Source of the DNA: Desulfosediminicola ganghwensis
GTDB taxonomy: Bacteria > Desulfobacterota > Desulfobulbia > Desulfobulbales > Desulfocapsaceae
DNA length: 64,000 nucleotides
Assembly: GCF_005116675.2 (NCBI RefSeq)
Contig: NZ_CP050699.1
Span: 1 to 64,000 of the forward strand
Direction: 5' to 3'
The notes under the pieces were generated by a model. That model was not told the origin of the DNA, did no database searches, and saw nothing but the letters and a program-made list of their open reading frames with translations. Positions within the stretch are counted from its first letter, which is position 1, and the number at the start of each line of letters is the position of its first letter. Below are positions 42,268 through 52,406 of the stretch, one piece after another. Both the position numbers and the translations under genes were made by a program.

Positions 42268-43278
42268 ATGGACGTAACCATTGTCGATATCTCCAGGCTG
42301 GCAGGAGTGAGCCTGGCCACGGTGTCACGGGTGATTAACACCCCTGAAAAAGTCTCCCCTGGCACACGGCAAAAAGTGTTGAAGATAATGGAGGAGCATA
42401 ATTACATCTATAATTCTCTGGCGGGAGGGCTGGCAAACAAGAATACCCGTACTTTGGGGATCATAATTCCGACCATTACCAATCCGGTCTTTGCTTTGGC
42501 AACAAACGGCTTCCAAAAAGCCGCTGTGAGCAAAGGATACTCGGTATTACTCGGCAGCACTGAATATTCAGCAGCCCAGGAATACCATTTAATACAACTT
42601 TTCATTGGAAAACAAGTTGATGGCATAGTTTTCACTGGAAGACCAATGCATAGTCAATCCATCGAGTACCTGAGACAGAGAAACATCCCCCTCATCATTA
42701 CCTGGGAAAAAATTACAGACGAAGAGATATCTTATGTGACTTTCGATAATGCCCTTGCTGCCAGAAAAGCTGTTGACCACCTTATCGCTTTGGGACATCG
42801 GCGTATTGCATTTATTTCCGGAAAATTTGAGGCAAGTGGCAGGTCAGAAAGACGCTGGAAGGGTTATAAGGAAAGTCTGCAGCAGGCCCATATTGCCTAT
42901 GATGATGATCTGGTTGTACTGACAGAATTTACCGTAATGGCCGGAAAAACTGCCGCGACCCAGCTCCTTCAGCTCGATATGCCACCAACTGCCATTTTCT
43001 GCACCACCGACCTGCTGGCCTATGGTGCCATGGCCTCGGTCCAGGATAAGGGCAAAAAAGTCGGTCCGGAGGTCAGCATAATCGGATTTGACGACCTCGA
43101 AATGTCAGGTGTGATGAACCCACCGTTGAGCTCCATCAGGATACCGGCCTTACAGATGGGGGAGATTGCCGCCAAGACACTGATCGACAATATCTCCGAT
43201 AAAACCAAAAGTGCTGTAAAACACATCCTGGATTCAAAGCTGATTGTCAGAAAATCAGTCGCACCTCCATGCGGATAA
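42268..43278 (+). CDS. LacI family transcriptional regulator
   Basis: 336 residues. The N-terminal helix-turn-helix and hinge (TIVDISRLAGVSLATVSRVIN, shown in part) are classical, and residues 60-336 form the periplasmic-binding-protein-like sensor (GIIIPTITNPVF, YVTFDNALAARKA, ALGHRRIAFISG, IIGFDD). A perfect 18-bp palindrome with a central CG, the type bound by this family, lies 3.5 kb downstream between the LarA-like gene and the TRAP genes, so that operon is a probable target (inference). Ligand unknown. It is convergent with the sigma-54 activator. Confidence 0.9.
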   Translation: MDVTIVDISRLAGVSLATVSRVINTPEKVSPGTRQKVLKIMEEHNYIYNSLAGGLANKNTRTLGIIIPTITNPVFALATNGFQKAAVSKGYSVLLGSTEYSAAQEYHLIQLFIGKQVDGIVFTGRPMHSQSIEYLRQRNIPLIITWEKITDEEISYVTFDNALAARKAVDHLIALGHRRIAFISGKFEASGRSERRWKGYKESLQQAHIAYDDDLVVLTEFTVMAGKTAATQLLQLDMPPTAIFCTTDLLAYGAMASVQDKGKKVGPEVSIIGFDDLEMSGVMNPPLSSIRIPALQMGEIAAKTLIDNISDKTKSAVKHILDSKLIVRKSVAPPCG

Positions 43279-43334: not shown

Positions 43335-44885
43335 TCAATCAACTACCGCATACCTGTAATATTCAGGATTTATCCCTAGTTTCTTGAGGCGGTATACCAG
43401 CGTCGACCGAGGCATATCGAGCAGGTTCGCAGCACCTTTTTTGCCACCGACCATGCCCTTCGTAACTTTCAGCACTCTGATTATATTTTCCTTTTCCGCC
43501 TGATCTCTGGTTACCAGTTGCGTCGACCGGGCAGGTGCACTGGTACTCATCAGAAACATTCGCTCGATATCGTGGGCACTGACACGCTTGCCGGGCTGGA
43601 GGATGATGAGGCGCTTGACCATATTCTTCAGCTCCCTGATATTGCCCGGCCAGGAGTACCCGCTGAGCAGGGCGAAAACCTCGTCAGTAAAAACCGGTGG
43701 AGCCTTATGCATTCGCTCAGCTTCACTGGCGGTAATACTTTTCAACAGAATCGGTATGTCTTCAGCTCTTTCGCGTAACGCAGGCACTTTAATGGTCAAG
43801 GTATCAAGGCGGTAAAACAGATCTTGTCGGAACTCGCCATCCTGCACACACTGAAAGAGATCCTTATTGGTTGCCGCTACGATCCTGGCATCCACCGGTG
43901 TTGAAGAACTCTCCCCTACCCTTTCGAATCTTTTTTCCTGTAGAACCTGCAGTAACTTTGCCTGCAAGCCCAGAGGCAACTCCCCAATCTCATCCAGAAA
44001 TATTGTGCCCTTGTCTGCAAGTTCAAAGCGACCCAACCTCTGTTTGTCCGCTCCGGTGAACGAGCCTTTGACATGACCAAACAACTCGCTTTCAAATAGT
44101 GAAGTAGTCAGTCCGGGACAATTGGTTTTAACGAGAAGATGATTTTTTCGATGACTTTTTTCATGGATGAGACGTGCCAGGAAATCCTTACCGGTACCAG
44201 TCTCACCTGTAAGTAAGATCGTTTCATCAGTATTTGCAACTTGTTCTATTGTCTCAACAACCTCTTTCATTCGCTGGGAACCGTAGTAAAAGCCGTCGAC
44301 CTGATAATCGTGGCTGTGAGTCAACAGATATTCCTTTTCTTTCTGCAGATGCTGATTGGTCTGCCTAAGCGCCGTATAAGCCAGCATATTGTCCACCGCA
44401 ATGGCAATCTGCCTGGACAAGGCATCAAGTAACTCGGTCAATTCCGTAAACGCAGGTGGCTTCTCCATATAGCTGAAATGGAGTGTGCCGAGAATTTTTT
44501 CCCTGACAATTAACGGATAAGCAAGAGTAGTCCTGAGGCCCGCCTCTACCAGGTAACGGATTGAGCTGATATCTGAATATTGGGTCAAGTCGTCAAAAAT
44601 TGCCGGTTGACCGGACGAGATAACAATTCGTGCTATCGCGCTCTGGTCGAGCGATCGCGCTCGATCATTAACATGACCACCGGGTTGAACTCCCACCGCA
44701 CTGGCAAAATATTCAATGGCCTTTTTGTCATGATCGTAGACATTAATGGACAGACGGTCGTAGCTGAAATGTTTATGCAACTCTTTGGAGAGGGATTTAA
44801 ATAGCCCTTCCCGACTCTTGCGGGCAGCAATGGAGTTGTTGATTTCAAGGATCAGCTTATAGCGGGTCTCTGCATTCCATTTCAT
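43335..44885 (-). CDS. Sigma-54-dependent activator with GAF sensor
   Basis: 516 residues. Residues 10-170 form a GAF domain. The AAA+ core has GETGTGKD (Walker A), GSFTGA (the sigma-54 contact loop; usual form GAFTGA), and [17 protein letters not shown]. The C-terminal Fis-type helix-turn-helix reads [21 protein letters not shown]. The organisation is that of FhlA/NorR-like activators with a small-molecule or redox sensor. AAGGA lies before the ATG at 44885; the upstream open frame is not used. It is divergent from the LarA-like gene, whose upstream region has a sigma-54-like promoter. Confidence 0.9.
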
Positions 44886-45279
44886 ACTGGCTTCCTTTGT
44901 AGTTAGGCTGCTCGAGTTTGATGGTTCCGGCGCTATTGTTTTGTGAAAAGCCGACAGATAATCCGCCCTTGGTGAGATACCTATCTCAAGGACCAACCTC
45001 CTCCACCGACAAGCATTGCGCATTTGCAGCCAGATTTCCGGCTGCACAGCTTCAACGGCCACTATGCAGCTCCCCCTCACCGGATTGAGTCATTGAGGAG
45101 ATCAAGAACATTAGCAAACACTTTAACAGCTGTGCTGATATACCCCAAATCGCCCTCTGCTCAATCACGCCTGACGCAGCTAGGACCGAAGATGTTTCCG
45201 GTTGTATGTTTCACCTGAATTTTCAAAGCATGAAGCCAAATCATGCACCTTAATGTTTAAGATCTTTACTCGATTGTGA

Positions 45280-45400: not shown

Positions 45401-45415
45401 TGGCATAGGATTTGT
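45401..45415 (+). promoter_or_regulatory. Sigma-54-like promoter of the LarA-like gene
   Basis: TGGCATA, four bases, TTGT. The -24 GG and the -12 TTG fit the TGGCAC-N5-TTGC consensus with correct spacing; the final C is T. It lies about 35 bases before the start codon and next to a sigma-54 activator gene. Confidence 0.45.
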
Positions 45416-45448
45416 AATGTATATTTGAATATTTACCCAAGGATACGA

Positions 45449-46708
45449 ATGGACATTGAACTCAAATACGGCACCGGGAAAATTGAATTACACGTACCAG
45501 AGATGGTAGAAGTGACGATTCTGGAACCACAGGCAAGAACTCCTGTAGCCTCAGTTCAGGAGGCGTTGCAGAATGCTCTGGCCGCAATTCAACCGTGCCA
45601 TCCCTCTTTTATGCAACACCGCAATAAAGAGTTCAGTGCCGCAATTGCAATCCCTGACGAGACCCGGGCATTACCAACGTCGGAAATACTTGCCGGCCTG
45701 TATGACTGGCTTCTCAGCTCTATTCCTTATTTACAGCCTGGGCGGATTACCATCGTTATAGGCGGTGGCCTGCAGTCGCAAGACGCGCAGACCGATATAA
45801 GCAAACTCGTTCCGGCTCATATCATCAGCAATTGTAAAATCATTCGCCATAATGCAAGCAAGAGCCAGGTCGCCGACTATGGGCGCACCTCAAACGGCAC
45901 TCCTGTCTATCTCAACCAGGCGTTTGCATCCGGAGATTATAAAATCGTTGTGGGTCAAATAGAACCACATCAGATTGCCGGCTTTACCGATAGTATGTCA
46001 GGCATGGTCATCGGATGCAGCAATGCGGCCACCATTGAGCATAATCACAGCCTGATGTTCGACGATAACGCCCGGGTTGGTCTCCTACACGGCAATCCTG
46101 TGCGTGAAGATCTGGATGAAGCGGGACGCTTGATCGATGTTGATTTCGCAGTCGATGTTGTTCTGGCCCCCAACAAAGAAGTCGTTGAAATATTGGCGGG
46201 ACCACCAGCAGACAATCTGGCCAAAGGGGCGAAAATCGCGGCGGATCTATATGGCGTCACTCTTGATGAGAAATTCGATATTGTTGTTGCAGGTTGCGGC
46301 GGGTACCCGAATGACATCAGTCTTTACACTGCACAAAAGGGCTTGCATCTCGCCTCCCAGGCAGTCAAGCCCGGTGGACATATCTTTCTGGTAACAGCGT
46401 TACCCCAAGGAGACGGCAAGGATATCTATTTTGATTACGTCTCTCAGTTCACAACTCCCGAAGAGGTATTGGCCGATTTCCGCAAGCAGGAATTCAATAT
46501 GGAAGCGCCCAAGGCCTATCTCTTTGGAAGGACCTTTTGCGAATTTGATGTGGCAGTTTACTCAAATCTCGACAAGGGAATCCTGAAAAAATGCCACCTG
46601 CGGGCCGCCAATCCATCGCAGGTTATCGCAGAGTGGCTTGAAAGCTATACGGACACCAAAAAAATTGGCGTAATCACCGACGCCGGGACAACCTATTTTC
46701 GCACCTAA
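45449..46708 (+). CDS. LarA-like protein lacking the cofactor-binding lysine
   Basis: 419 residues, LarA (DUF2088) fold. Compared with the canonical LarA at 31961, the catalytic histidines seem present (IIRHN, GQIEPHQIAGF) and so does the nickel-ligand histidine (NHS). The segment that should read SRKSILPG reads SMSGMVIG: the lysine that carries the nickel-pincer nucleotide is gone. It may hold the cofactor non-covalently, use another metal site, or catalyse another reaction. AAGGATACGA precedes the ATG. It is followed by a small membrane protein and a TRAP transporter, so its substrate is probably the imported acid. The family call is sure; activity is unknown. Confidence 0.85.
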   Translation: MDIELKYGTGKIELHVPEMVEVTILEPQARTPVASVQEALQNALAAIQPCHPSFMQHRNKEFSAAIAIPDETRALPTSEILAGLYDWLLSSIPYLQPGRITIVIGGGLQSQDAQTDISKLVPAHIISNCKIIRHNASKSQVADYGRTSNGTPVYLNQAFASGDYKIVVGQIEPHQIAGFTDSMSGMVIGCSNAATIEHNHSLMFDDNARVGLLHGNPVREDLDEAGRLIDVDFAVDVVLAPNKEVVEILAGPPADNLAKGAKIAADLYGVTLDEKFDIVVAGCGGYPNDISLYTAQKGLHLASQAVKPGGHIFLVTALPQGDGKDIYFDYVSQFTTPEEVLADFRKQEFNMEAPKAYLFGRTFCEFDVAVYSNLDKGILKKCHLRAANPSQVIAEWLESYTDTKKIGVITDAGTTYFRT

Positions 46709-46750
46709 AAGCTAGGTCCCGATGGGTTATTGGTAGATGATTGGCGTTGA

Positions 46751-46768
46751 AATGTAAACGTTTACATT
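46751..46768. promoter_or_regulatory. Perfect 18-bp LacI-type operator
   Basis: AATGTAAACGTTTACATT is a complete palindrome with central CG, the form recognised by LacI/GalR proteins. It lies 43 bases after the LarA-like stop and 120 bases before the small membrane protein. The LacI gene at 42268 is the obvious candidate binder. Confidence 0.7.
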
Positions 46769-46887
46769 GAGGTCGACCGAGGTCGTGTAACCGGCATTAA
46801 GAGCGTGACGTTGTACCCCTTGCGCTCATACTCGGCTCGTAAGTTATAAATTTCTGGGGCGTATTTCTAAAATGAATATGTGGAAAA

Positions 46888-47136
46888 ATGACAAGCGAAA
46901 AAGACAAAGCTGAACAATCCAACGTTGGGAAAGTAGGTGTCATTCTATTTGCTATCTCTTTCGGCTTGTACGTACTGAACGTGCTGGTCGGAAAAGCATC
47001 AGTTGTTTACGGATGGGAGATTTTCCACCTGGGCAATGTGGGTGAATTCCTGCTGCTGTTCACGGCATCCATAGCATTTATCGTTGCCGCGTTACATTCT
47101 GAAGCGGTTTTGAAAAACCGAAAACTAAAAGGGTAG
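46888..47136 (+). CDS. Small two-helix membrane protein of the TRAP locus
   Basis: 82 residues. Two hydrophobic helices (about 15-35, VGVILFAISFGLYVLNVLVG, and 50-70, VGEFLLLFTASIAFIVAAL) are separated by a short loop, with charged ends (MTSEKDKAEQS, KNRKLKG). It ends nine bases before dctP, so it belongs to the same unit. It is too small to be a DctQ subunit, which is encoded separately. It could be an accessory to the transporter. I recognise no family. Confidence 0.75.
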   Translation: MTSEKDKAEQSNVGKVGVILFAISFGLYVLNVLVGKASVVYGWEIFHLGNVGEFLLLFTASIAFIVAALHSEAVLKNRKLKG

Positions 47137-47145
47137 GAGGATATT

Positions 47146-48300
47146 ATGAGTGAGAAAAAGCTAACCGATGGTCCAAAGTCAGTAGAACGCCGCCGTTTCA
47201 TGGAAATTACTGCTAAAGCTGGTTTTACCGCCGCAGTTGTTGCCATGGGAGCAGGTGTACTCGGTTCCAAAGAGGCCTCTGCTCAGGTTGTCAATGAGGA
47301 GAAAGAGCGCCAGAAGACGGCAAAGTACACCATGAATGTGGCCACAGCCTATAGACTCGGCGCGTCACGGACATACCCGATTATGCAGCTCGACTTCAAG
47401 GAAAACATCCAGAATGCCACCAACGGTCAGGTCTACGTGAAACTGGCTCCGGGCGGGCAGCTGGGTGCAGGCAGCGCGCTGGTCCAGAAGGTTCAGGCGG
47501 GCACCATCCAGGCCGCGCAACACTCCATTGCCAACTTCGCTCCTTTTGCCCCGGCAGCGGACGTTATCAACATCCCTTACTGGTGTGGCGAGAACCAGAA
47601 GTTTATAAATCTCGTTACCTCTGATGCCTGGAAACAGGAATTGGATCCTAAAATTGAAGCAAAGGGGTTCAAGGCACTCTGGTATGTATGTATCGATCCA
47701 CGCACCGTTGCCGTTCGCCAGGGCATCGACGGCCCGATCAGAACCCCGGACCAGCTGCGCGGTATCAAATTTCGGGTACCAGGTTCCAAAATCCTGCAGC
47801 AGTTCTATCAACTTATTGGCGCCAACCCCACCCCGGTCGCCTGGGGAGAAACCTCGTCTGCCATCAAGCAGGGTGTAGCAGATGCCCTCGACCCATCTGT
47901 TGAGGCATTGCTGGTATTCGGTTTTAAGGAAATCCTTTCAAGCGTTACCTTCAACGCTGCAGTACCTGATTCCCAGGTCTTTTCCTGTAACCTGAAATGG
48001 CTGAGGAGCCTGCCAATCGATGTTCAGGAAGGTATCGAATTCGCCTCAGAGATTACCAGCAGGCAGAACCTGGCCAAGGTGCCCGCGGCACGTAACTATG
48101 CCATGGCCGAGATGGCCAAAGCCGGTGTCGACTTCTATGTACCCACCGAGGATGAGATTGAGCAATGGGTTGCCAAGGCTGGTGCCCAGTTGCCTGCCTG
48201 GGATGCAATCAAGAAGGAACTGGTCGGCTCACTGGCCAATTTCGATAAATTGCAGGAAGCAGCGAATTCCTATAACAACTTCTACGTTCACGACATTTAA
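47146..48300 (+). CDS. dctP: TRAP transporter solute-binding protein DctP, Tat-exported
   Basis: 384 residues, periplasmic receptor. The N-terminus has a twin-arginine signal (ERRRFMEITAKAGF) and a hydrophobic stretch ending near ASA at residue 47, so it is exported folded. The DctP fold follows, including the conserved region around RGIKFRVPGSKI, in which an arginine usually binds the substrate carboxylate, and VAWGETSSAIKQGVADALD. AGGAGG precedes the ATG. A carboxylic acid ligand is expected; the identity is not known. It forms a set with DctQ and DctM. Confidence 0.92.
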   Translation: MSEKKLTDGPKSVERRRFMEITAKAGFTAAVVAMGAGVLGSKEASAQVVNEEKERQKTAKYTMNVATAYRLGASRTYPIMQLDFKENIQNATNGQVYVKLAPGGQLGAGSALVQKVQAGTIQAAQHSIANFAPFAPAADVINIPYWCGENQKFINLVTSDAWKQELDPKIEAKGFKALWYVCIDPRTVAVRQGIDGPIRTPDQLRGIKFRVPGSKILQQFYQLIGANPTPVAWGETSSAIKQGVADALDPSVEALLVFGFKEILSSVTFNAAVPDSQVFSCNLKWLRSLPIDVQEGIEFASEITSRQNLAKVPAARNYAMAEMAKAGVDFYVPTEDEIEQWVAKAGAQLPAWDAIKKELVGSLANFDKLQEAANSYNNFYVHDI

Positions 48301-48377: not shown

Positions 48378-48899
48378 ATGCAATTTAATAAAATTATTAG
48401 AGAAATTGACAAGAATGGTGAGCGTTACCTACTTTTGCCTTTCTACACTTTAATTGTGCTCACGATTTCCATAGAAGTGCTCAGGCGTTCTCTACTCTCC
48501 TATTCATCAATATGGGCGGAAGAAGTTGCCAGATACGCCTTTATCTATGTGGCCTGGATTGGTGCCTCGTCTGCGATTAAGGAACGGGCTCACATCCGCA
48601 TTGATGTGCTCCTTCCCCTGTTCTCCCAGCGGATTCGCGGTTTCATCTTTCTCTTTGGCGATATTATCACCCTGATTTTGGCGATCCTCGCTATTTACTG
48701 GTCTATGGAACCTGTGCTTACCTCCATTCATTTTGACTCCGTCACCCACGGCTTACGGATCAGTCAAGCCTGGTTTCTGGCATCGGTTCCTCTTGGATTT
48801 TCCATGATGGTTGTCCGCCTTCTGCAATCGATGAAGCGGGATATTAGTGATTTGAAGGCTGGAAGACCAGTATTCGAAGGAAACAAACTTTTTGATTAG
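48378..48899 (+). CDS. dctQ: TRAP transporter small permease DctQ
   Basis: 173 residues, four membrane helices. The DctQ-type string YSSIWAEEVARYAFIYVAWIGASSAIKERAHIRIDVL is recognised by WAEEVARYAF and HIRIDVL. It links the receptor to the large permease in the inner membrane. GAGG precedes the ATG, and the gene is 11 bases before dctM. Confidence 0.9.
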   Translation: MQFNKIIREIDKNGERYLLLPFYTLIVLTISIEVLRRSLLSYSSIWAEEVARYAFIYVAWIGASSAIKERAHIRIDVLLPLFSQRIRGFIFLFGDIITLILAILAIYWSMEPVLTSIHFDSVTHGLRISQAWFLASVPLGFSMMVVRLLQSMKRDISDLKAGRPVFEGNKLFD

Positions 48900-48910: not shown

Positions 48911-50221
48911 ATGTATTATGAACACTTGATGCAGGCACCTGTAATATCACTGGGATGGGAATTCTACCTACCCGTCATCGGAATGCTGATCATGATCCTG
49001 ATGGCGGTTCGGATCTGGGTCGTAATCGGGCTCGGTTCACTGGTGATGCTGCTGACCACCGGAGTTCTGCCCCCCACCTTGATGGGAGAGGCATTATTTG
49101 AGGGCATAGACTCATTCGCCCTCATTGCCGTGCCATTATTTATCCTGACAGGAGATGTCCTGGTTCGAACAGGGTTGTCAAACAAACTCCTGAATGTCGC
49201 TGAAGCGACCATGGGCTGGCAGAAGGCAGGCCTGGGCACATCCACCGTTTTAGGCTGTGGTTTCTTTGCCTGTATCTCCGGCTCTGATGCCGCCGATGCC
49301 GCAGCAATCAGCCGGATCACCATCCACAGGCTGGTAGAGAAAGGATACCCGAGGGGTTACGCCTGTGCACTGGTGGCAGCCGGCGCCTGTACCGGAATTT
49401 TGATTCCACCTTCCATCGCCTATATCATTATCGGTCTGGTACTTGGAATATCCGCCTCGACCCTGTTTCTTGCCGCAGCCGTACCGGGAGTGATGATACT
49501 GACCTCAGTGATGATTACCAACACGATCGTCAACAAATTTAAGCTCTACGAAAATTCGAATATCGGCTTCAGCTTCAAACACTGGCTGGCGGCAATTTAT
49601 GATGGTCGTTATGCGCTTCTTATTCCGTTTATAATCCTGGGTGGAATCTATTCCGGCATTTTCACCCCCACCGAATCGGCTGCCATAGCAGTAATGACAA
49701 CCATCTCTATCGGTTTCTTGCAGGGTACTCTGAAGATCGCTGATTTTCCTGAAATGCTTGAGACATCGGCCAAGGTGAATGGTGTTATCATCCCGATCAT
49801 CGCCATGTCCCATCCTCTGGCTCAGGTGCTGGCTTCTCTACAGGTACCACAGGCATTCGTCTTCTTCATGACCTCACTCACAACCAGTAAAGTACTGATC
49901 ATCCTTATCATGCTCTTTATTCTTATGGTTGCCGGCTGTGTTATGGAGACAACACCCAATATTGTTATCCTCTCGCCGCTGCTGCTCCCACTCGCATTGG
50001 AGATCGGTATGCACGAGATCCATTTCTGCATTTTTATGATTACTGCGTTGGGTATCGGTTTTATCACTCCCCCACTTGGGCTTAACCTCTTTGTGGTGTC
50101 GGGTGTTACCGGGACCTCGGTGCTGGAGATATCGCGATATGCCCTTGCTTTTGTGGCGATGATGTTGGTTGTGGTTTTGATCATTGCCTTTGTACCACCT
50201 ATTACCATGTGGTTAATCTGA
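48911..50221 (+). CDS. dctM: TRAP transporter large permease DctM
   Basis: 436 residues, about 12 helices. Typical DctM strings are GIDSFALIAVPLFILTGDVL, FFACISGSDAADAAAISRI, ILIPPSIAYIIIGLV and FTPTESAAIAV, given as parts. It moves the acid with sodium ions. Last gene of the unit; a terminator lies about 185 bases later. Confidence 0.92.
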   Translation: MYYEHLMQAPVISLGWEFYLPVIGMLIMILMAVRIWVVIGLGSLVMLLTTGVLPPTLMGEALFEGIDSFALIAVPLFILTGDVLVRTGLSNKLLNVAEATMGWQKAGLGTSTVLGCGFFACISGSDAADAAAISRITIHRLVEKGYPRGYACALVAAGACTGILIPPSIAYIIIGLVLGISASTLFLAAAVPGVMILTSVMITNTIVNKFKLYENSNIGFSFKHWLAAIYDGRYALLIPFIILGGIYSGIFTPTESAAIAVMTTISIGFLQGTLKIADFPEMLETSAKVNGVIIPIIAMSHPLAQVLASLQVPQAFVFFMTSLTTSKVLIILIMLFILMVAGCVMETTPNIVILSPLLLPLALEIGMHEIHFCIFMITALGIGFITPPLGLNLFVVSGVTGTSVLEISRYALAFVAMMLVVVLIIAFVPPITMWLI

Positions 50222-50499: not shown

Positions 50500-52368
50500 C
50501 TACTTACCTGGTATTTCCCTCGGATCTGTCATGTTCTCCGGTCTTAGCAAGTCATCCAGCTCTTGCTGCGAAAGCAGTTCTTTCTCCAGCAATAATTCAT
50601 AAACGCTGGCACCAGTCTTTAACGCCTCTTTGGCAATTGCCGCAGACTGTTCATAACCGATAACAGGCACCATTGCCGTGATCAGGCCAATACTGTTTTC
50701 CACATATCCGCGACAGACATCCCGATTAGCTTCAATCCCGGAAATACAACGGGCGGCCAGAGTCACGCAGCCGTTTTTCAACACCATCATGCCGTGGAGC
50801 AGGTCGTAGGCAATTACCGGCTCCGCCATGCAGAGTTCAAGCTCACTCGCCTCCGCCGCCATGGAAACCACCATATCGTAGCCCATAACCTGATAACAGA
50901 TCTGGTTCACCAACTCCGGGATAACCGGGTTGACCTTGCCTGGCATAATGGATGAACCTGGCTGCATGGCCGGCAGATTGATCTCATTCAAGCCGCAACG
51001 CGGACCGGATGACATCCAGCGAAGGTCATTGCATATCTTGGAGATCTGCACCGCAGCCAGCTTGAGATTGGCAGACATCTGCACAAAAATAGAGGCATTT
51101 TGTGTGCCTTCCACCAGGTTTTTCGCCCTTCTGAGCTCAAAACCACTCACTTCTGCCAGCTTCTCAGTCACCAGGTTCGCGTAACCTGGAGGCGAGTTGA
51201 TCCCTGTGCCGATTGCGGTTGCCCCCATATTGATATCAAGCAGAGCATAGGCCGCGCGCTCAATGGACTTGATCGCCCCCTCGATCATCACCGCATAGGC
51301 ACTGAACTCCTGTCCCAGCGTCATCGGCACCGCATCCTGATTTTCGGTACGCCCCATCTTCAATACATCGCTGAACTCCTTCCCCTTTTCATCCAGAGCA
51401 TTTTTCAGATCTTCCATGGCTCTGATCAGACTTCGATTCGAGAGCAATACCGCAAGCTTGATAGCCGTCGGGTAGGCATCGTTGGTGGACTGGGAACAGT
51501 TGACATGATCATTGGGGTGCAGGTAACGATATTCACCTTTCCGCTTGCCCAGCAACTCCAGGCCACGGTTGGCAATCACCTCGTTGGCATTCATATTGGT
51601 CGAAGTACCGGCACCGCCCTGGAACATATCCACCGTAAAAAATTCGTGCAGCTTACCGGCTATAATCTCCTCGCATGCATCGCAGATCGCCCCCGCCTTT
51701 TTCTCATCAAGCATACCCAGTTCATGGTTGGCCATTGCTGCCGCTTTTTTAACCATGGCCAACCCTTCAATCAAATGATCGAAATTTTTAACCAACACGC
51801 CGGAAATAGCAAAATTCTCCATTGCCCGCTGGGTCTGCACTCCATAATAGGCGTGATCACTAATCTCACGCTGCCCCAGGGAGTCACTCTCAAGCCTGAA
51901 ACCGCTCATCTCGGCAATCTCGTGCTGGTTCTCATACAGGCGGGTTGAAAGTACCTTGAGCCTCCTGTTGATTCCCACTGCCACGCGCTCAACAATGCGA
52001 AAATAGATCTCTGGTTTCGACTTTTTATACTCATCCAGCTGTTTGCGGTTGATACGCCACACCACCGCACCTTCTCTGGTATACGCGCCGTTGCTGTGGG
52101 CATCATCTTCTAAAAATGCGCCTTCACTTATCAGGGATCCGGGTACCATCGTCGCTATATGCCGTGAAGCACCATGTAGCCCGCGAACCAGTTCAACCCT
52201 GCCCTCGAGCAGGATTCCAGCCCACTGCCTTGGTGTCGATTCCTGAAAGAGCCACTCATTGGCCACATACTCCCTCCGCTCTCCCTTTTCAAAAAAGAAC
52301 CGGATTTCTTCCTTGTTCAAGCCTGTAGCCTTCTTCACCTGTTGAAAAATCGCCTGCTCAATCTGCAT
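50500..52368 (-). CDS. aspA: Aspartate ammonia-lyase fused to a cyclic-nucleotide-binding domain
   Basis: 622 residues. Residues 1-150 form a Crp-like cNMP-binding domain (GILLEGRVELVRG, MVPGSLISEGAFL, VWRINRKQLDEY). Residues 155-622 form an aspartase of the fumarase/aspartase superfamily: STNMNANEVIANR, the HVNCSQSTND loop and the catalytic-serine loop PGSSIMPGKVNPVIPE. The reaction is L-aspartate to fumarate and ammonia, feeding fumarate respiration or C4 metabolism. E. coli AspA has no such domain, so allosteric control by a nucleotide or other ligand is likely (inference). The start at 52368 keeps AGGAG six bases ahead. The DcuA/B gene precedes it by 38 bases. Confidence 0.92.
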   Translation of the reverse strand: MQIEQAIFQQVKKATGLNKEEIRFFFEKGERREYVANEWLFQESTPRQWAGILLEGRVELVRGLHGASRHIATMVPGSLISEGAFLEDDAHSNGAYTREGAVVWRINRKQLDEYKKSKPEIYFRIVERVAVGINRRLKVLSTRLYENQHEIAEMSGFRLESDSLGQREISDHAYYGVQTQRAMENFAISGVLVKNFDHLIEGLAMVKKAAAMANHELGMLDEKKAGAICDACEEIIAGKLHEFFTVDMFQGGAGTSTNMNANEVIANRGLELLGKRKGEYRYLHPNDHVNCSQSTNDAYPTAIKLAVLLSNRSLIRAMEDLKNALDEKGKEFSDVLKMGRTENQDAVPMTLGQEFSAYAVMIEGAIKSIERAAYALLDINMGATAIGTGINSPPGYANLVTEKLAEVSGFELRRAKNLVEGTQNASIFVQMSANLKLAAVQISKICNDLRWMSSGPRCGLNEINLPAMQPGSSIMPGKVNPVIPELVNQICYQVMGYDMVVSMAAEASELELCMAEPVIAYDLLHGMMVLKNGCVTLAARCISGIEANRDVCRGYVENSIGLITAMVPVIGYEQSAAIAKEALKTGASVYELLLEKELLSQQELDDLLRPENMTDPREIPGK

Positions 52369-52406
52369 GTACATCTCCTATTAATAAGAGTTCCATTTCA
52401 TAATAA

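Follow-up and report, generated by a model that had tools for sequence, protein, structure and literature searches.

A LarAH5-family LarA homologue without its cofactor lysine and one catalytic histidine, probably disabled, in a probable stripped DHPS/sulfolactate operon of Desulfosediminicola ganghwensis

The locus and its genes

The window analysed here, the first 64,000 nucleotides of contig NZ_CP050699.1 of Desulfosediminicola ganghwensis, carries a larA homologue located between a divergent gene for a sigma54-dependent activator and a group of genes coding for a small membrane protein and a TRAP transporter (Table 1). The open reading frame is real and its product is a LarA homologue of 419 residues that matches Pfam Lar_N (3.8e-36, 124.6 bits with a gathering score of 23.3) and LarA_C (3.4e-12, 47 bits with a gathering score of 25), in agreement with the original prediction, which had placed such a gene at 45449-46708. 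That prediction had also coupled larA to the transporter in one unit. An organic-acid TRAP system is indeed its neighbour; that both belong to the same unit is doubtful, given the gap of 179 bases (46709-46887) between larA and the small-protein gene and the perfect palindrome lying in it. The palindrome looks like a LacI-type operator of the TRAP genes, and no second exact copy of its 14-base core exists in the 5.65 Mb genome. Together with the LacI-family gene at 42268-43278, it suggests that the TRAP genes may be under their own control, separately from larA. The genes ahead of the Leisingera TRAP system compared in Table 1 code for a LacI-family protein and a small hypothetical protein, and those behind it are histidinol-dehydrogenase-like, SDR and comDE genes, a setting that can be read as an hps (DHPS) locus. 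Beyond the TRAP genes, positions 50500-52374 of the reverse strand code for an aspartase/fumarase-like protein whose N-terminal part, from sequence only, resembles a cyclic-nucleotide-binding domain.

Table 1. Features of the larA locus (window positions; L060, L040 and L063 are relatives' loci)
Feature	Position	Strand	Remarks
LacI-family regulator	42268..43278	+	candidate owner of the palindrome at 46752-46767
Divergent sigma54-dependent activator	43335..45080	-	GSFTGA, compared with GAFTGA in eight compared orthologues
Decayed sigma54 promoter TGGCATAGGATTTGTA	45401..45416	+	48 nt before the larA start codon; -12 GC now GT
LarAH5-family larA	45449..46708	+	K184S, H108Q (own Q109), F176I, Q294T, G352E, H354P; D70, R73, H174, H200, K297, K355 kept
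Codon CAG, Gln109	45773..45775	+	LarA has catalytic H108 here (alignment)
Codon TCA, Ser184	45998..46000	+	LarA has NPN-tethering lysine K184 here (alignment)
Perfect 16-base palindrome ATGTAAACGTTTACAT	46752..46767		in the 179-base gap after larA; putative LacI-type operator of the TRAP genes
Small membrane protein	46888..47136	+	orthologous to the small protein that precedes TRAP in sulfolactate operons; 46-51% to L060, L040, L063
TRAP substrate-binding protein DctP	47146..48300	+	77.6% to L060
TRAP small permease DctQ	48378..48899	+	71.7% to L060
TRAP large permease DctM	48911..50221	+	82% to L060; 62% to Leisingera TRAP

Family, fold and active-site residues

At the family level, the window LarA scores 520 bits over its full length with NCBIfam NF052595 (LarAH5, named malate racemase), for which the curated cut-off is 462 bits. 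An AlphaFold2 model built with 21 other LarA sequences reaches a mean pLDDT of 88 and superposes on known LarA and Mar2 structures with Z scores of 47.5 (2yjg), 46.6 (5huq) and 45.2 (7s91), predicting with confidence that the protein adopts the LarA fold. The closest solved structure by sequence is Mar2 (6d6z, 7s91), which shares the fold (Z about 45) and 32% identity with the window LarA and differs from it in being a LarAH6 member with K181 and the full catalytic set.

The alignment locates a serine at the position of lysine K184, which tethers the nickel-pincer nucleotide (NPN) in LarA, and no substitute lysine is found at the attachment place. The catalytic H108 has also disappeared, since the GGGLHPP motif of LarA has become GGGLQSQ. 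Further changes affect F176I, Q294T (LarA Q295) and H354P (at the position of LarA W358), and in the pocket and loop G181D, G182S and H354P are replacements by unlike residues. By contrast with these losses, the histidines of EPH (H174) and NHS (H200) are retained, as well as D70, R73 and K297 (D72, R75 and K298 in LarA numbering). The H/Q-K pair at the W358-T359 positions, typical of malate racemases (PMC11770544), corresponds to P354-K355, so that its histidine is lost and its lysine is kept. In comparison with LarAH5/Mar1 (NF052595; PMC7583248), the window LarA thus has in common D72, R75, H174, H200, K298 and the pocket lysine at the T359 position, whereas it lacks K184, H108, Q295, F176 and the pocket histidine that intact members keep, and its locus is devoid of their catabolic neighbour genes. 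The missing cofactor lysine and the two retained histidines stand as originally predicted; the histidine set given there was incomplete, as the loss of H108, no less important than that of the lysine, had been overlooked. As grounds for its own refutation the prediction had named another attachment lysine, which the alignment does not offer, or membership of a known subgroup with a non-lysine mechanism. The protein does fall in a known subgroup, LarAH5, whose intact members keep the lysine.

The extent of these changes was evaluated over family-invariant columns defined on 21 intact LarAH5 relatives, each of which was left out in turn. The window LarA is changed in 16 of 69 columns, while the leave-one-out losses amount to 0-3 of about 70 columns in most relatives, 6 in G419 and 20 in G347, the most remote one; on these alignments, the loss of invariant residues exceeds chance. 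The concentration of lost residues in the active site is not significant (6/15 versus 10/54, p 0.10). K184 is retained in all 45 intact LarAH5 copies compared (the 21 relatives and 24 second-family loci), and so is H108 in all 44 copies that span it. Outside these intact sets, a sister copy at 3959725-3960972 of this genome keeps K184 but shows Q in place of H108 and C in place of Y294; in the fragment L048, H108 is replaced by K and R75 by H. Neither a lysine-less LarAH5 clade nor an orthologue with the changes of the window LarA was found among 258 genomes of the class or in a GTDB scan. Sequencing error is an unlikely source of the changes because they affect many separate codons and the genome consists of a single 5.65 Mb contig.

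The open reading frame of the window larA contains no stop and no frameshift, which counts against decay. A raised dN/dS, considered as possible proof of decay, was not found on the window larA branch under a codon model with saturated synonymous sites (branch length about 19), a result that is consequently uninformative. The root-to-tip distance of the window LarA is 1.04 versus 1.02 for the intact copy of the same genome.

Promoter decay and the missing operon block

The upstream regions of 14 other LarAH5 genes were scanned for sigma54 sites, scored out of 16 against the consensus. A TGG-N10-GC site scoring 13-15 is present in 13 of them, mostly 44-57 nt before larA; the sites of L047 and L044 lie farther upstream (80 and 123 nt), and L038 displays weak sites alone (11 of 16). 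The corresponding site of the window larA has lost its -12 GC. The sister copy devoid of H108 keeps its sigma54 promoter.

The architecture of the operon in the relatives is illustrated by L060, a locus of a Desulfobulbaceae MAG, in which a divergent sigma54 activator and larA are followed by genes for a SAF protein of 94 residues, a UxaA-type protein of 386 residues, TctC, TctA, TctB, an aldehyde:ferredoxin oxidoreductase, a 3-hydroxyisobutyrate-type dehydrogenase, a small membrane protein, DctP, DctQ and DctM. The SAF and UxaA-type genes read as suyAB, coding for sulfolactate sulfo-lyase, and the Tct genes as a TTT transporter. L041 shares this layout, except that its tblastn list shows no aldehyde oxidoreductase, and other relatives retain large parts of this operon. 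The window locus has nothing between larA and the small-protein gene: suyAB, the TTT transporter, the aldehyde oxidoreductase and the dehydrogenase are missing, and suyAB is present in two copies elsewhere in the genome. The simplest account is the loss of a block between larA and the small gene, and we infer a deletion event, of which no convincing scar, in the form of a match to the lost genes, was found in 46709-46887. Divergence along the locus is uneven. The dctP identity to L060 is 77.6% for the window and 73.6% for L041, whereas the LarA identity is 58.3% and 64.5%, respectively, indicating that the window larA has diverged while its TRAP genes have not. The window activator is likewise more diverged and carries the GSFTGA motif.

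Linkage of LarAH5 to suyAB

Sulfolactate and DHPS are widespread organosulfonates, and sulfolactate is an analogue of malate in which a sulfonate replaces one carboxylate. In the route described for Desulfovibrio DF1, the COG2084 protein DhpA and SlaB carry out the oxidation of DHPS, for which an aldehyde:ferredoxin oxidoreductase is another candidate, and SuyAB cleaves sulfolactate (PMC6278857). The intact relatives of the window LarA carry a similar set, with suyAB, a COG2084-type dehydrogenase and often an aldehyde:ferredoxin oxidoreductase; only the activator, larA, the small protein and the TRAP genes remain of it at the window locus. The 386-residue SuyB-like protein shares 72.6% identity with a protein of Cupriavidus pinatubonensis encoded beside genes annotated hpsN and hpsO, which is the known setting of SuyAB. 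Because of this identity and of the DF1-like gene set, the operon of the relatives reads as one for DHPS/sulfolactate degradation.

Of 258 genomes from the class, 11 have LarAH5 (G066 as a fragment), and all 11 are included in the 13 genomes with SuyB, a co-occurrence with a hypergeometric p of about 1e-17 when shared ancestry is ignored. Neither protein is present in the remaining three genomes of the genus. A second family of 288 genomes yielded 24 LarAH5 loci with new flanks, and suyB (69-83% identity) is found within 6.2 kb in 21 of these, in several gene orders; two of the three exceptions are contigs of about 4 kb. No suyB was detected near the nine LarA loci scoring below the LarAH5 cut-off. 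The linkage extends over several Desulfobacterota families (e.g. L060:2905-11961, L055, L148-L170), and three genomes (G419, G347 and G303) have LarAH5 without a close SuyB (best 35-39%). The link between LarAH5 and suyAB is therefore strong, not universal.

The described organisms interconvert the sulfolactate enantiomers by means of two dehydrogenases, SlcC and ComC (PMC12421959, PMC9594981), whereas the intact relatives add a LarA-type NPN enzyme. By analogy, a LarA beside suyAB would be a natural one-enzyme replacement for the SlcC/ComC pair. In G150, from contig C23, SuyB is found without LarAH5 and a ComC-type dehydrogenase (PF02615) lies about 4 kb away, suggesting that the LarA and ComC racemisation routes can replace one another. 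G062, G064 and G069 have both LarAH5 and a ComC-like dehydrogenase near the cluster, and sulfolactate racemisation may have two routes in these genomes. On plasmids, the search for LarAH5 returned only relatives of about 30% identity.

A complete DHPS/sulfolactate gene set in the same genome

A complete DHPS/sulfolactate set, flanked by larE and larB, is located at 3.95-3.98 Mb of the D. ganghwensis genome. The set itself spans 3.953-3.976 Mb. Its first part comprises larE, an activator, an intact LarAH5 (3971875-3973125), suyAB, an aldehyde oxidoreductase, a dehydrogenase and a different TRAP system, and these are followed by the H108Q LarAH5, a second suyAB, larB and a LacI-type regulator. 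The genome thus has three LarAH5 copies, two of them without H108. Since larB, larE and also larC (at 4.96 Mb) all score over the cut-off, NPN can be made, and since the set at 3.95-3.98 Mb is complete, the window larA is not needed for the pathway. The two suyAB pairs are nearly identical (1150 of 1158 suyB bases match), in contrast to the LarAs adjoining them, which share only 58% identity.

Interpretation

The reading favoured here, to which we assign a probability of roughly two in three, is that the window larA codes for a catalytically disabled LarAH5 left in a stripped DHPS/sulfolactate operon. Intact LarAH5 enzymes would most likely carry out an NPN-based interconversion of the 3-sulfolactate enantiomers, and the racemised sulfolactate would be handed to the (R)-specific SuyAB to yield pyruvate and sulfite. 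The accepted LarA mechanism requires two acid/base histidines together with NPN (PMC12611868, PMC11770544); of the two histidines H174 alone remains in the window copy, and with both H108 and K184 gone it should not racemise by that route. Lacking the tethering lysine and one acid/base histidine, it could not run the two-sided, proton-coupled hydride transfer. The loss of the genes from suyAB to the dehydrogenase between larA and the small-protein gene, and of the -12 GC of the sigma54 promoter, would belong to the same reduction, and the retained TRAP importer probably supplies the complete set at 3.95-3.98 Mb. The window copy would in this way illustrate how an enzyme of this kind may lose its activity and leave its transporter in place.

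Several observations would also fit a non-catalytic role under maintenance, namely the intact open reading frame, the confident fold, the flat dN/dS, the unremarkable root distance and the p of 0.10 for the active-site residues. A maintained pseudoenzyme could use the LarA fold, for instance, as a sulfolactate sensor, a partner of the intact LarAH5 or a carrier of NPN; the conservation of D70, R73, H174, H200, K297 and K355 agrees with it, as does the existence of a second copy that has lost H108 and kept both K184 and its promoter. Nevertheless, we regard this role as unlikely, because the same changes recur in no orthologue of the class genomes or the GTDB scan, the promoter is damaged and the partner genes are gone, and pocket and loop residues have been exchanged for unlike ones. 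Its more specific form, in which LarAH5 enzymes feed SuyAB as nickel-pincer sulfolactate racemases in sulfite-producing anaerobes, two of the three copies in this genome have become proteins without H108, and the window copy, devoid of the cofactor lysine as well, senses sulfolactate or modulates the active racemase, seems to us a long shot. The same low standing is given to the proposal of the original prediction that this is an active LarA-fold enzyme with an untethered NPN, or one performing a new reaction on an imported acid. The nickel ligand H200 is kept together with H174, R73 and D70, the LarA of T. thermosaccharolyticum is reported to bind NPN non-covalently and to shed it when purified (PMC11796402), and LarA-like enzymes with one catalytic histidine do exist. 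However, in the latter, LarA_Sp and LarA_Bw (9q3k, 9q3j; PMC12611868), it is H174 that is changed, to Asn, and both H108 and the lysine are kept, whereas the window LarA keeps H174 and has lost both others. The loss of pocket residues, the absence of a conserved clade with its change, the altered promoter and the missing catabolic genes also go against an active enzyme and leave the disabled LarAH5 as the preferred reading.

A separate question concerns the substrate of the family. Mar1 of D. hafniense, the characterised LarAH5, racemises malate in vitro with a KM >50 mM, its authors doubt that malate is the native substrate and suggest another (PMC7583248), and D. hafniense is listed among the species with suyB (PMC6278857). 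That LarAH5 is nonetheless a true malate racemase, its link to suyAB reflecting, for example, malate handling in sulfonate-respiring cells, is in keeping with the in vitro activity and with the NCBIfam name; we hold it improbable in view of the very high KM, the co-occurrence within the class and the close proximity to suyAB, which holds in different families and gene arrangements. Because of that linkage across families, LarAH5 is more likely, as far as gene context and sequence can tell, to racemise 3-sulfolactate with the nickel-pincer cofactor than to be a malate racemase, and the intact relatives of the window LarA are probably unrecognised sulfolactate racemases. The family name may then be wrong as to the native substrate. 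If correct, this assignment would give a natural substrate to a LarA subgroup whose characterised member has a very poor KM for malate, and would define a nickel-pincer route for sulfolactate/DHPS in anaerobes that turn sulfonates into sulfite and sulfide. A literature search of mostly open-access coverage, which leaves room for a prior mention, returned nothing tying LarA, malate racemase, DUF2088 or nickel to sulfolactate or DHPS. At a further locus, L165 (G717), several LarA matches (64-75% to the G417 LarA) lie next to two suyB genes, and LarAH5 appears to have been locally multiplied or split there.
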